From positions 572,902 through 636,901 of the forward strand of contig RDEW01000035.1 in the NCBI GenBank assembly GCA_011109175.1: a stretch of DNA of 64,000 nt, read 5' to 3'. This document shows, in pieces, positions 211 to 51,045 of this stretch (position 1 is the stretch's first letter; every line of letters starts with the position of its first letter). Under the pieces are notes generated by a model. That model made no database searches. It was not told the DNA's origin and saw nothing but the letters and a program-made list of their open reading frames with translations. Origin of the DNA: Dicyema japonicum (lineage: Eukaryota > Dicyemida > Rhombozoa > Dicyemidae). The translations under genes and the position numbers were made by a program.

Positions 211-502
211 CCAAGTCAAGAGACACTAAATAAAAAAATTCGTCAATATAATATTCAATATTTAAAATATGGTTTTATCACATCTCCTAATGATGAAAGA
301 CGACCTTTTTGTTTATTATGGTCAAAGTCATTTTCTAACGAGGCTATGAAGCCTTCTAGATTCAGTCAGCATTTACGAAGGGTTCTTATATTTTACTAAA
401 ATATAGGTCCATTCAACTAACTCCAACCAGGACGTTTTTCCAAAAGTTTCTGGGGAAACAAAAAATCAACGGAGCCTGGAGAAATTATTCTCCAGTATGC
501 AA

Positions 503-665
503 TAGTAAATGGTTTATTAGTATTATATATACTACATTCCAATATTAAATGGTTTATTAGTATTATATATACTACATTCCAATATTAAATGGTTTATTAG
601 GAGAAATTATTCCATTATCTGTTTCATGCTGTTTTCTTCATGCTGTTTTCTTCATGCTGTTTCTG
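503..665. repeat. Two short tandem repeats (40 bp and 14 bp units)
   Basis: A 40-bp unit starting GGTTTATTAGTATTATATAT occurs at 511-550 and 551-590, with a partial third copy at 591-600. A 14-bp unit TCATGCTGTTTTCT follows three times at 624-665. Both are AT-rich and contain no ORF. The stretch 211-500 holds nothing I recognise. Confidence 0.85.
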
Positions 666-8799: not shown

Positions 8800-9110
8800 A
8801 CTAATATTCAGGTGATCCCGGCATCTCTCAATAATCGGCCCATTTTTTCTCGATGCTCCGACCGTGATCCCACGCATTTTCTATACGGACGAGGGTCTTT
8901 TTCTTTTCCTCTTCTGAAATTGCTTCCAGTTGCCTCTATGATAGACTCGATTGCTCTGTGGGCAATTTCTTTATCTGTATATTTTTCCAGTAATTTTTTT
9001 GCTCTTGACTGGATCTCTTGAATTTTTGTTAGGTTCGTTGCCGACAGGTCCCCATGCAGCACATGCATAGCCTATTGTTGGCTTAGATCCCCATGCAGCA
9101 CATAATTTAA
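8800..9110 (-). mobile_element. LINE-C C-terminal tail
   Basis: Minus reading: YACAAWGP, then after a slip LSATNLTKIQEIQSRAKKLL and a tail ending SRSEHREKMGRLLRDAGI before a stop at about 8810. This is the usual end of Jockey/CR1-type proteins (a WxP...LxxLQxxQxRAxR motif). The tail motif recurs at 22280, 24885 and 51175. The 18-bp string ATCCCCATGCAGCACATA and near-copies sit at 9046-9105. Confidence 0.6.
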
Positions 9111-9215
9111 TTATTATTTACTCAATTATTAGTTAACTGTATTTACTTAAATAAAATTAAAAATAAATAATAAAATAATAAATAAATTAGTTCGCTAAAT
9201 TCGCATTTCACGAAA

Positions 9216-10939
9216 ATGAGTTATTTGAAAATGAATTCAGAAAACTTCAAATTCGTCAACAAAGTTCAATCCAAAGGCCCGTATTCACAAATTGAAGCCT
9301 TCGAAGGCTTCCTCCATTTATGGATTCACTCTTTTTAAACAAGATTCGACTTCCCAAAATAAGGTAGTAAACCTGATTGAGAACTGTCCTGCAAGTATGT
9401 CGGGAATGATGGAGAATGACATTCTCATTATGGTAAACGACATCAATGTTGAACAAATGGATCATTCCGATATTGTTGATCTCATTAAAAACTCATCCCC
9501 TGAGTTGACTCTTTTGGTGGTTGACGAAAACTCCTATCAATATTTTACCAGTAAGGGAATACGTATTTCAAACGAAATCGACGAAATTGAGAGTTTCTCT
9601 AACCTTAACAGTTAATTTTGGATAATTTCAGGTTCACTCGATGATTATTCTGAAAAATACCAAGACGAGGTCAAAGGTTTATCCATTTGAGGATTATAGA
9701 ATCATCCAATGAGGGCTCTCAGGTAAAGAAGGAAATAGGTTTGCTTATTGAAGAATTCAATTCAGTCAAGGAGGATTCCAAGGAAATAAATGACAAAGGT
9801 TCGCTCATTTGAGGATTTCAATTCAGTCAAGGAGGATTCCAAAGAAATAAATGACAAAGGTTCCCTTATTTGAGGATTTCAATTCAGTCAAGGAGGATTC
9901 CAATGAAATAAATGACAAAGGTTCGCTTAGGATTTTAGGATCATCCAAAGAGGGCTCTCATGTAAAGAAGGAAAAAGGTTCCCTTATTTGAGGATTTCAA
10001 TTCAGTCAAGGAAAATTCCAAGGAAATAAATGACAAAGGTTTGCTTATTTGAGGATTTTAGGATCATCCATGAAGGGCTCTTATGTAAAGGAAAAAGGTT
10101 CGTATATTTGAGGATTTTAGGATCATCCAAGAAGGGCTCTTGTGTAAAGAAGGAAAAAGGTTCGTTTATTTGAGGATTTCAATTCAGTCAAGGAGGATTC
10201 CAAGGAAATAAATGACAAAGGTTCGCTTATTTGAGGATTTCAGGAACATCCAAGAAGTGTCTCTTATGTAAATGACAAAGGTTCCTTTATTTGAGGATTT
10301 TAGGATCATCCAAGAAGGGCTCTTGTGTAAAGAAGGAAAAAGGTTCGTTTATTTGAGGATTTCAATTCAGTCAAGGAGGATTCCAAGGAAATAAATGACA
10401 AAGGTTTGCTTATTTGAGGATTTCAGGAACATCCATGAAGGGCTCTTATGTAAAGGAAAAAGGTTCGCTTATTTGAGGATTTTAGGATCATCCATGAAGG
10501 GCTCTTATGTAAAGGAAAAAGGTTCGTTTATTTGAGGATTTTAGGATCATCCAAGAAGGGCTCTTGTGTAAAGAAGGAAAAAGGTTCGCTTATTTGAGGA
10601 TTTCAATTCAGTCAAGGAGGATTCCAAGGAAATAAATGACAAAGGTTTGCTTATTTGAGGATTTCAGGAACATTCAAAAAGTATTCTGGGATAAGAAAGG
10701 ACAAAAGTTGGCTTATTTAAAGATTTAAGAATCGTCCATTGAGGATTCTGAGATAGACATGTCCAAGGGTTCGATTATTAGTAATTTCCAGGAACTTTGA
10801 GGACGGATTCTGTGATTAGAAAGGACAAGGGTTTGTTTATTAGAGGATTCAGGGTCACCCACTAAGATTACAAAGGAGGTCAACTTCGTAGATTTAACGA
10901 CAAAGACAGGTACTGCTGAGTAATATCTTAGACATATAA
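9216..10939 (+). CDS. PDZ-domain protein with tandem mini-exon repeat tail
   Basis: Exon 1 is 9216-9254 (ATG at 9216). A 22-nt intron (9255-9276) leads to exon 2, 9277-9610, which encodes one PDZ domain: IYGFTLF as the carboxylate loop, ENCPASMSGMMENDILIMVN, then HSDIVDLIK and LTLLVVDEN. The LLVVD-type end is typical of NHERF PDZ domains. A 21-nt intron and exon 9632-9676 follow, then 19 mini-exons (9700-10830), a 57-nt exon (10853-10909) and a last piece ending at TAA 10937-10939. The spliced length is about 389 codons, allowing for one extra base in exon 10244-10280. The tail is charged and rich in Lys, Glu and Ser. NHERF-like proteins scaffold membrane proteins; the tail's job is unknown. 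The end is less certain: a 44-codon open stretch lies just downstream (about 10958-11088). Confidence 0.75.
9700..10830 (+). repeat. Array of 19 duplicated mini-exons and mini-introns
   Basis: Type A exons are 33 nt and encode VKEDSKEINDK across the junction (9766, 9827, 9888, 10006, 10188, 10371, 10612). Type B exons are 36 or 39 nt and encode GSSKKGSYVKEK-like units (9700, 9939, 10062, 10121, 10304, 10427, 10486, 10545, plus a 37-nt one at 10244). Three diverged 39-nt exons end the array (10668, 10730, 10792). All begin and end in phase 1. Introns are 28 nt (ending TTTCAATTCAG) or 22-23 nt (ending TTTTAG or TTTCAG), plus one each of 27 and 18 nt. Read unspliced, every frame is closed by the intron TGA and TAG triplets. 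Confidence 0.8.
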
Positions 10940-11435
10940 AATGACAAATCTCTACAGGACATTGTTAAACAAAATATTCCCGATGATATTGTCGCATACA
11001 AGAATAGTTTGATTTTGAGAGGCAATTGTCTCAGATATCGAAGATCAGAAAGTCTACGCGAACATGTGTTCAAATTGTCCCGAATCTAGTCCTTAACCTT
11101 AACTATTCTTTTACCTGTTTGGTTAAAATATGCCATTAATATGATTTCATTAAATTTCACATTTTTTGGATTCCACTAAAATGCCTTAGGACTTTTCATT
11201 TTTAATCCTTTTTTCAAGTCTTTGAAGTTCCCCTGGAAGGGAAGCAGTCAAAACTAATGTGGACTTTTAGGACATCTTTCGAAATCCTCTTAACATAAGA
11301 AGGATGGGATTATGGTCGTTGGAAAACCATAATTCACATCCATGTAGCAAGTCATGCCAAAGAGGATGAACATAAGGTTAAATCGGTAGAAGTGCAACTA
11401 TCAGTGTTCCTCAATGGGGTTCTTGTGTAATTTAG
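10940..11435. other. Spacer after the PDZ gene
   Basis: It contains an open stretch of 44 codons (about 10958-11088, DIVKQNIPDDIVAYKNS onwards, stop TAG) that could be an alternative last exon of the PDZ gene, but I found no splice that joins it in frame. The rest shows no feature. Confidence 0.35.
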
Positions 11436-47973: not shown

Positions 47974-48354
47974 ATATAGAGACTTGAAAATATGAGCTGA
48001 TCGGGCAAACATAAGAAAAAATTCTTGCACAGAATCGGATTTAGTTGAAACCTAAAACAAAGAATCCATCTTCCAAGAATAAGCTTGGAAGAGGATTTGC
48101 ATCTATTACACAAAAAGTAAACGAATGCGTTTTAGAATTCTTCCGAGACCTTGAAAAGAAGTCGAATTATTGTTTGAGGAAAATAAGATTATACGGGTCA
48201 TAAAATCAAAGAAAACATATTGGCCACAATTGTAGAATCCTGAATCTAAACTATAAAGAACCCGCTGTTATGCATCCGACTTACTAAAAAAGCTCCAGGA
48301 GAAATCTTTTAATTGTAAAAATACGGAAGAAGCAATTGCATATGTGTCCTACAA

Positions 48355-51045
48355 GTCAAACTAAATGAACTATGCCCGTCCAAGAGTCTACTAACCGTCA
48401 TAAATGTCTATGCACCACACTGTGGACGAGTAATCAAGAACCACGGTGAACTCGAGGAATTCTACTCAGAACTATCAAGCACATACTCTAACAATGCTTC
48501 CTCGTCTCTTATCTTTGTTGCGGGAGATATGAATGCAAAGGCCGGAATGCGAATGGGGCCCGAAGAATCCTCTATTGGAAGACACGGGCGCGGAAGGAGA
48601 AATGCATCTGGAGCCTCTCTGGTAAACTTCTGCGAGGCGAATAGCCTTTTCCTGTGCAACACGGCCTTTACGCACTCAGCTTGCCACAAGACGACGTGGC
48701 ACGGACAAAGAAAAAACTCTGTCGGAGAGACCGTGAATATATATAATCAAATCGACTACATTATCTGCCGAAAGTCTGATAAACACCTGATAAATGATGC
48801 ACGTTCCTACCAGGGAACAACAACCGACAGCGACCACAGGATCGTCATTGCAAAACTTTGTGTAAAAAAGCACCTGACTGGGAAAAAATACATTGAAAAC
48901 GCGAAGAAGGCGAGACAAAGACCCAATATATACTTTCAGACAGAAAAATTGTGGTTAGAGCCAACTTGTAGAGCTAAATATCACGAACAAATCGAGACTC
49001 TTATGGTGAAAACCGCACCGGAATCATCAGTACGAACTCTGTGGGATCAAACAAAACAGGCAATCTCCAAGTCGGCCAAAATATGCCTTGGAGTCCGAAA
49101 TCATCACGCCCTAAAATTGGATCACCACCCGAACGTGCCAAATATGGCAAAGCATTGCAGAGAGCTACGACTAAAAGCGGCAAACACGTCAGACGAGAGT
49201 AAAAAAAAGAGCTTAATATCCAACAAAGGGAACTAAAGTGGAAAATCAAAAAGATGAACAGAAAACACTCACGGGAAATTATTACATCTCTATTAAAAGA
49301 TGTGGAATGCCTAAAAGACAATTCAAGGATGTATGCGGCTGCTGCGGACAAAGAAAGGACAAAACATCCTTCACATCAAAGACAAAGATGGAAAATTCGT
49401 GGGTAACCCGAAAGAAAAAGCAGAATTGATTGCACGACACTTCGAAACACTGTTGAATAAAGAAAATAATGACTTTCCCCCTTTCCAAGGAGAAGCAAAG
49501 GCGCTAAAAATCCCAATCACAGTGGAAGAGGTGGAATTAGCGATAAATAAACTGAAGAACAACAAGAGTGCTGGGCCGGACAACATAAGCCCTGAGCTCC
49601 TAAAATATGGGCCAAAAAAACTTAGCGACACAATTGCAAAAACCCTAAATGACGTCTTTGAAACTAATACCGATCTAGGACTTGGAAATGGATTATTAAT
49701 ACCCATACAAAAACCGAACAAATCAAAAGGACCAGTAGAAAATCTCCGCCCGATAATACTTCTGAATTCGATACGCAAGGTGCTGGCAAACATTGCACTA
49801 AGCCGGATAAAGGGTGTGGCGATCTATACCTACCAGCAAGTCAAAGTGGGTTCCGAGAAGAGGTCTACGGCAGACATTGTATGGAGCCACAGATGGCGCT
49901 GCGCAACGCACCAAAGATTCAAGAGCGCAACAACCGTGTTGGGAATAGATCTCTCCAGAGCTTTCGACTCAATAAACAGACAGAAACTGATGAATGTGCT
50001 TGAGCAAATATTGGATGAATCGTCGGTTAGGATAATCAGACTACTACTTGCGAACACAAGACTATCTGTGAGGACAGAAGGAGCAACTTCCCGCAGTTTC
50101 AAAACAACGATTGGGACACCCCAGGGTGATTCCCTCTCCCCTTTACTATTCACCATATACCTTGAATCTGCACTCCGCGACCTCCGTAAATGCTATATAG
50201 GAGACATAGAAGAGACATCTTATGCGGATGATGTGGATTTTGTATCACGGGATGTGACCGCACTCCAACACCTGCTAGAAAATGCACCTGCGGAGCTTGA
50301 GAAATGGTTTCTCAGCGTAAATGTTAACAAAACTGAAATTACGGAAATCAAAAGAGAAGACGATATTACTCATGAAAGATGGAGACGTACTAATAAGCTC
50401 GGCTCTCTACTAGGAGACGCTGAAGATGTACTAAGGAGGAAAACACTGGCAAATGCGGCAATGGCTAAACTGAAGAAAGGATGGCTAAGGGCCAAAGGAC
50501 TTGGAATTGACATCAGATGCAGGCTTTACAACGCGTTTGTGAAACCGATCCTACTGTATAACGCTGGGACATGGGGAAGTTCCTTCAACGAACTATTGAA
50601 ACTGGATTCGTTCCATAGAAGGCAACTAAGAAGCTTACTCGGAATGGAGTGGCCACGTAGAATATCAACCACTGGTATCTACAACAAGTGTATGTGTTCT
50701 TACATCAGCAAGGATGTGATAGATGCCCGGTGGAGGCTATTTGGGCATGTACTAAGAATGAACCCGGACGCACCCGCTAACAAAGCGATGGAAGATTACT
50801 TTGACAGATGCGAAAAACCCTTCCGCGGACGACCTAGATCGACACTTCCGACAGCCCTAAACAAAGACTTAAATCGTGTGAGAAAAAATTTAAAGACGGG
50901 AGACGACCTGGACGAATTGAGATCACTCGCATTCGACAGAGGAAAATGGAAAAGACTAACTATAAATATTGTTTCTTTGAGTGTTGCACATGCGGGGCTA
51001 TAATCATTATGGCTTTCGTGAAAGTGCTTTAATAATAATAAGGCC
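48355..51045 (+). mobile_element. LINE-A, nearly complete: APE endonuclease plus reverse transcriptase
   Basis: The endonuclease part runs from about 48360 to 49236: LLTVINVYAPHCGRV, FVAGDMNAKAG, NQIDYIICRKS and TTDSDHRIVIAKL (the GDxN, DYI and SDH motifs of APE nucleases). After a frameshift at 49236-49333 comes one open RT frame of 556 codons ending 51003: KNNKSAGPDNISPELLKYG, LRPIILLNSIRKVLA, VLGIDLSRAFDSINRQ, GTPQGDSLSPLLF, SYADDVDFVS (YADD, about 50218), LYNAFVKPILLYNAGTWG, ARWRLFGHVLRMN, FRGRPRSTLPTALN. There is no RNase H or gag-like ORF1. The 3' end finishes in TAATAATAATAA at 51030-51041. This is the best copy of the family; others lie at 3666, 4130, 32340, 52080, 54880, 55260, 56250 and 58300. 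Confidence 0.9.

Follow-up and report, generated by a model that had tools for sequence, protein, structure and literature searches.

A tandem array in a Dicyema japonicum PDZ gene is best read as mini-exons paired with very short introns

Introduction

The stretch of Dicyema japonicum DNA analyzed here (64,000 nt, C121:572902-636901; the window) carries a PDZ exon followed by a tandem array with a period close to 61 nt. The locus raises the question of whether this array is a non-coding minisatellite lying behind a short gene, or part of the gene itself, composed of duplicated units that each hold one exon and one intron. An earlier note, made from the sequence alone, took the latter view. 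We read the array unit by unit, compared it with a second copy of the gene, and set its introns beside those of actin and HSP70 loci in the same genome.

Results

In the window, TRF places a tandem array of period 61 at 9685–10677 (16.4 copies) and reports the same array at periods 59, 62, 182, 365 and 424. A scan of 188 kb, comprising the window and 13 fetched loci out of the 64.67-Mb genome, gave one other array with a period of at least 30 and at least 2.5 copies, a 40-bp repeat of 2.5 copies at window positions 500–600. Read unit by unit on the forward strand, the array resolves into 19 mini-exons between 9700 and 10830, each preceded by a GT..AG intron of 18–28 nt (Table 1), with lengths, phases and GT..AG ends as in the earlier note. 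A recount also upholds its statement that 18 of the 19 have lengths divisible by three. Together the mini-exons amount to 688 nt, or 229.3 codons, and stops within them number one in the coding phase (phase 1; inside the 37-nt exon) versus 23 and 13 in the other phases. They are flanked by a 45-nt and a 57-nt exon of the same gene model, which places 22 introns within 1.3 kb (9611–10931). Three of these 22 introns have lengths divisible by three, and retention would meet an in-frame stop in phase 1 for 18 of them. The array introns at 9921–9938 (18 nt) and 9739–9765 (27 nt) are divisible by three and stop-free, such that retention would be read through. No Rfam match at the gathering score and no tRNA was found in the window. 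Elsewhere in it, at 48319–51003 on the plus strand, a pair of adjacent open frames with matches to Exo_endo_phos_2 (PF14529) and RVT_1 (PF00078) marks a retroelement of LINE type.

Table 1. Predicted features of the window copy of the gene
Feature	Positions	Strand	Remarks
Start region	9216..9240	+	ATG 9216 is the counterpart of the L004 start codon
PDZ exon (NHERF type)	9241..9610	+	Pfam/PDB matches, gene model
21-nt intron	9611..9631	+	holds TAA 9613-9615; L004 has the same 21-nt intron
45-nt exon, phase 1 to phase 1	9632..9676	+	
Array, 19 intron-plus-mini-exon units of 57-62 nt	9677..10830	+	
Mini-exon 1, 39 nt	9700..9738	+	counterpart present in L004
Mini-exon 2, 33 nt	9766..9798	+	
Mini-exon 3, 33 nt	9827..9859	+	
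Mini-exon 4, 33 nt	9888..9920	+	
Mini-exon 5, 39 nt	9939..9977	+	preceded by the shortest intron, 18 nt
Mini-exon 6, 33 nt	10006..10038	+	
Mini-exon 7, 36 nt	10062..10097	+	
Mini-exon 8, 39 nt	10121..10159	+	
Mini-exon 9, 33 nt	10188..10220	+	
Mini-exon 10, 37 nt	10244..10280	+	frame-breaking; TGA 10273-10275
Mini-exon 11, 39 nt	10304..10342	+	
Mini-exon 12, 33 nt	10371..10403	+	
Mini-exon 13, 36 nt	10427..10462	+	
Mini-exon 14, 36 nt	10486..10521	+	
Mini-exon 15, 39 nt	10545..10583	+	
Mini-exon 16, 33 nt	10612..10644	+	
Mini-exon 17, 39 nt	10668..10706	+	
Mini-exon 18, 39 nt	10730..10768	+	L004 counterpart identical
Mini-exon 19, 39 nt	10792..10830	+	counterpart present in L004
57-nt exon	10853..10909	+	L004 counterpart identical
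22-nt intron	10910..10931	+	identical in L004
Last exon	10932..11089	+	in-frame TAA 10937-10939, not in L004

Classified by exon length, the units run in the order BAAABAbBAxBAbbBABBB (A, 33 nt; b, 36; B, 39; x, 37). The introns of A units measure 27–28 nt, and those of the others mostly 23 nt. In our reading of the alignment, one base has gone from the old acceptor AG of the 28-nt introns and a later AG serves instead, shortening the exon by 6 nt, so that the A-type units would represent an acceptor move that keeps the frame. The units at 10160 and 10343 are identical; together with the periods of 182, 365 and 424, this suggests duplication in blocks of several units.

Searching the genome at the DNA level with the array as query recovers, besides the array, a single further place at C121:539758-539979. 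It belongs to a second copy of the gene (L004), which lies outside the window, ∼43 kb upstream of the window copy, start region to start region. L004 is one open frame of 253 amino acids from an ATG at L004:1051. Its seven exons (388, 45, 39, 39, 39, 57 and 155 nt), of which three are mini-exons, are separated by six introns (21, 23, 23, 23, 23 and 22 nt). Retention gives an in-frame stop for four of the six introns. All five internal exons are divisible by three, and exons 2–7 (374 nt) run without an early stop. This frame pattern was matched by 2 of 20,000 within-exon shuffles (0.0001), a figure that flatters the model because the boundaries were picked by eye, following the repeated motif. 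The open frame of L004 provides the strongest evidence that the predicted junctions are real, and it lends support to the claim of the earlier note that the array consists of duplicated exon-plus-intron units with phase-1 symmetry and is more than a non-coding minisatellite.

The two copies can be aligned over ∼2.2 kb (window ∼9105 to 11260), and relative to L004 the window copy holds sixteen extra units (9739–10706). A search for the intron-core pattern allowing up to three mismatches returned 38 matches across the genome, 25 on the forward and 13 on the reverse strand, against 4 + 4 for a reversed-pattern control. All 14 matches with zero or one mismatch lie in the array, and three of the five with two mismatches lie in L004; the other two, and all 19 with three mismatches, are spread over other contigs at a spacing of at least 15 kb. 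As far as this pattern search sees, the repeat is limited to the locus pair. A stretch resembling a tRNA-derived SINE was noted by eye on the minus strand at ∼861–930 of L004, immediately upstream of the gene there.

The PDZ exon matches PF00595 (E 7.1e-08) and 56 PDB sequences at E ≤ 0.001, the best being PDZK1 (E 3.1e-11); with PDZK1/NHERF relatives among these, the assignment to a PDZ gene in the earlier note holds. The gene is predicted from these matches to encode an NHERF-type PDZ scaffold. A six-frame genome search gave 10 matches, namely the two copies and eight on six further contigs. Two of the paralogs, L014 (C53) and L015 (C152), read on the opposite strand of the fetched loci, have by eye an additional PDZ-like stretch upstream, and share with the last exon of L004 a tail motif, (L/F/I)P(D/E)xI, likewise seen by eye; the C termini read KLSKL (L004), RISRM (L014) and ALSQM (L015). 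Members of the NHERF family carry a C-terminal ERM-binding tail, which the tails of L004, L014 and L015 may resemble. NHERF1–4 each contain more than one PDZ domain; by reading, the 253-amino-acid frame of L004 contains one. Because the tails of L014 and L015 match the last L004 exon, the array would encode a linker between the PDZ domain and the common tail. With the 37-nt exon omitted, the stretch after the 45-nt exon is 238 residues long, of which 61 are K, 37 S, 28 E and 20 D; from this composition the linker is charged and probably disordered. No homologue of the spliced L004 protein reached E ≤ 0.001 among 279 candidates.

Human actin and HSC70 were aligned by splicing to 15 loci on both strands, three of which (L035, L036 and L040) are one gene. 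Among the eight loci aligned to human beta-actin, seven show 80–92% identity and one 56%, as befits an animal-like genome. The alignments yield 39 distinct GT..AG introns: four of 13, 13, 17 and 17 nt, 34 of 20–30 nt with a median of 24.5, and one of 78 nt, such that 38 of the 39 are at most 30 nt long. Several actin copies have common introns of 22–28 nt at residues 42, 114 and 192, and the 78-nt intron is that of actin locus L025 at residue 114. Actin matches number 76, including some equal-scoring pairs within one contig (C94 and C137; loci L022–L031). Published values for Dicyema are a median intron of 27 bp for Dicyema sp. (PMC6543705) and, for D. japonicum, a genome size of 67.5 Mb and introns averaging 38.2 bp (PMC6736024); the assembly used here (64.67 Mb, 191 contigs) agrees with them in both genome and intron size.

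A splice matrix was built from the 34 introns of 20–30 nt, some of the 20-nt ones possibly being alignment artefacts, and the introns of 13, 13, 17, 17 and 78 nt were dropped. Scored against 8,227 random GT..AG pairs, the 22 modelled introns range from the 63rd to the 99.7th percentile. The six 28-nt array introns score weakly (77th–86th percentile), and the 27-nt intron is the weakest. Against the model, the matrix, which has no length term, gives its 11 highest scores in the region to 15-nt GT..GAG pairs that are not among the modelled introns. None of the 34 training introns is so short, and splicing at these pairs instead of the 23- or 28-nt introns would lengthen the exons by 8 or 13 nt and break the frame. 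The 18–28-nt introns of the array have the size class and splice signals of the genome's own introns.

The window copy departs from the intact frame of L004 at three places. The frame from ATG 9216 ends at 9336, and the PDZ frame has a TGA at 9232–9234, leaving the start out of frame. With every exon kept, the frame shift in the 37-nt exon leads to a TGA within that exon, so that the ∼229 residues that the earlier note expected the array to add are not reached; the other 18 mini-exons, without this one, add 217. Finally, a TAA at 10937–10939 precedes the tail, beyond which the frame stays open to TAG 11087–11089 and encodes the tail common to L004, L014 and L015. Near the start, 5 of 10 GT..AG pairs, one of them 22 nt long, would give an open N terminus; since half of all candidates pass, the case that the start is spliced around is weak. 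An intron directly after ATGA was rejected, as in both copies it throws the PDZ exon into the wrong frame. A donor site within the 37-nt exon, which would leave an exon of 24 nt, was also rejected, the junction to the next exon creating a stop (by reading). Given the three lesions relative to intact L004, the window copy would be either a decaying duplicate or the source of a shortened product.

Differences between the copies are distributed 12/10/14 over codon positions 1/2/3 in the PDZ exon and 5/9/4 in the linker exons. For the PDZ exon, dN is 0.098 and dS 0.137 by NG86, and 0.113 and 0.088 by YN00, giving dN/dS of ∼0.7 and 1.3. Introns and linker exons have diverged to a similar degree (11/112 and 18/219). 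Of seven indels in coding sequence, five are divisible by three, versus none of four in introns (two-sided p 0.06, one-sided p 0.045; hand counts). The comparison of the copies gives no visible sign of selection on the amino-acid sequence, and the window copy is possibly a recent pseudogene.

Discussion

The array is best read as part of a gene rather than as a non-coding minisatellite, because its second copy keeps an intact frame and because actin and HSP70 introns are equally small. We infer that the 18–28-nt segments are spliced out. It seems probable to us that the locus is one of two copies of an NHERF-like PDZ gene whose exon-plus-intron units act as minisatellite units and have expanded in the window copy. 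That the array is instead a non-coding minisatellite behind a gene ending at TAA 9613 would suit both the 61-bp period and the lack of a selection signal at codon positions. We nevertheless consider this very improbable, since the L004 frame crosses the same junctions to reach a tail motif common to two paralogs, 18 of the 19 lengths are divisible by three with stops so uneven among the phases (1 versus 23 and 13), and the introns fall into the actin/HSP70 size class.

A closer contender accepts the exons and introns as real but takes the window copy for a pseudogene, whose array has expanded or persists unused. We hold this to be quite possible, if somewhat short of probable. A start codon in a different frame from the PDZ exon, a stop at 10273 brought in by the 37-nt exon and another at 10937 before the conserved tail are what decay would leave, differences between the copies lack a third-position excess, and L004 is intact; yet 18 of the 19 mini-exons have stayed in frame, the frame beyond TAA 10937 is open to the end, the start lesion could be spliced around by 5 of the 10 GT..AG pairs, and an exon can be skipped. 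The same lesions, and perhaps some of the units, might alternatively be errors of assembly or sequencing in a working gene. A one-base insertion and a one-base shift are frequent error types, and tandem arrays are difficult to assemble. However, the TAA is a three-base difference, the start region differs at several bases and the units differ from one another at many positions, which makes this explanation unlikely. A further proposal, in line with the potential for very many isoforms raised in the earlier note, is that the mini-exons are skipped in many combinations to provide a set of linker lengths, in the manner of micro-exon genes. The symmetry of 18 of the 19 mini-exons would permit it, a long product would require omission of the 37-nt exon, and schistosome micro-exon genes are reported to skip exons (PMC4015677). 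Against this, skipping a single exon needs an intron of 79–90 nt in a genome where 38 of 39 actin/HSP70 introns are at most 30 nt, and L004 manages without the expansion. The length of the intron needed makes skipping less likely, and we doubt strongly that the array serves as such a device. If splicing proceeds by intron definition, as would be expected here, retention with an in-frame stop is a likelier error than skipping.

Under the favored reading of a two-copy gene with exon-plus-intron units, ∼60 bp are enough for a mini-exon with phase-1 symmetry plus its mini-intron, and the two could act together as one minisatellite unit. The difference of 19 versus 3 units would be explained most simply by expansion in the window copy through unequal exchange or slippage, a direction that we infer, as we do the role of the array as a linker. 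Each added unit would bring its own donor and acceptor, and the linker would therefore grow by 11–13 residues per step with the frame intact. Splicing would be expected to proceed intron by intron, retention running into an in-frame stop for 18 of the 22 introns; skipping of exons would be a possible, unproven route to shorter forms. Since exon and intron together fit within 57–62 bp, minisatellite expansion would be able to add whole exons. We put forward tentatively, and with more doubt than belief, that the gene works and that repeat expansion changes its exon number, its linker length and perhaps its set of isoforms from one individual to another; if so, it would be a length-variable protein linker that can be built in this way only in a genome with introns of ∼20 nt.

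If the array is spliced as modelled, extreme intron shortening has placed exon-intron units in the size range of minisatellites, and repeat instability could add exons one by one. The pair of copies ∼43 kb apart, with 3 and 19 units, makes this process of exon addition testable, and 22 introns of 18–28 nt among exons of 33–39 nt within 1.3 kb would be a stringent natural test of a spliceosome.

Comparison with known systems

The earlier note knew of no gene built in this way, but schistosome micro-exon genes are described with coding regions that consist mostly of tiny symmetric exons, with lengths mostly multiples of three (PMC4350168, PMC4015677, PMC10526429), and with symmetrical exons that undergo alternative splicing (PMC4350168, PMC4015677). 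The array shares with them many small symmetric exons (18 of 19), whose symmetry allows skipping without loss of frame. Micro-exon gene introns, by contrast, are given as 0.1–5 kb (PMC10526429), and those of the array are 18–28 nt. Most micro-exon genes are described with a signal peptide, unlike the PDZ protein encoded here, and adjacent exons and introns of the array repeat one unit in near-identical form; the likeness drawn here is one of architecture. Davis reportedly described tandemly repeated exons in the S. mansoni gene 10-3 / MEG-4 in 1988. As is reported for that gene, tandemly repeated exons here encode protein repeats, although the repeats of 10-3 / MEG-4 are given as 81 bases.

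Minisatellites are reported to alter exons and introns of human paralogs, with units that average 30 bp, lie in exons or introns and in some cases make introns from cryptic sites (PMC2812944). There, as here, expansion reshapes the gene structure of recent duplicates, but each unit of the present array comprises one exon and one intron. In a search of open-licence literature on tandem exon-intron units, covering titles and the openings of abstracts and so constituting weak evidence, none so small with both an exon and an intron was found. The array also recalls NHERF and PDZK1 scaffolds, in which PDZ sequence is followed by a linker and then a C-terminal tail, although the L004 frame has a single PDZ domain and a linker made of mini-exons. 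Serial exons encode protein repeats in titin PEVK, collagens and spider flagelliform silk as well, with exons and introns much larger than those of the array. Schistosomes thus already offer described cases both of genes built from symmetric mini-exons and of exons repeated in tandem; what is new at this locus is the scale, with an exon and an intron together in each unit of 57–62 bp.
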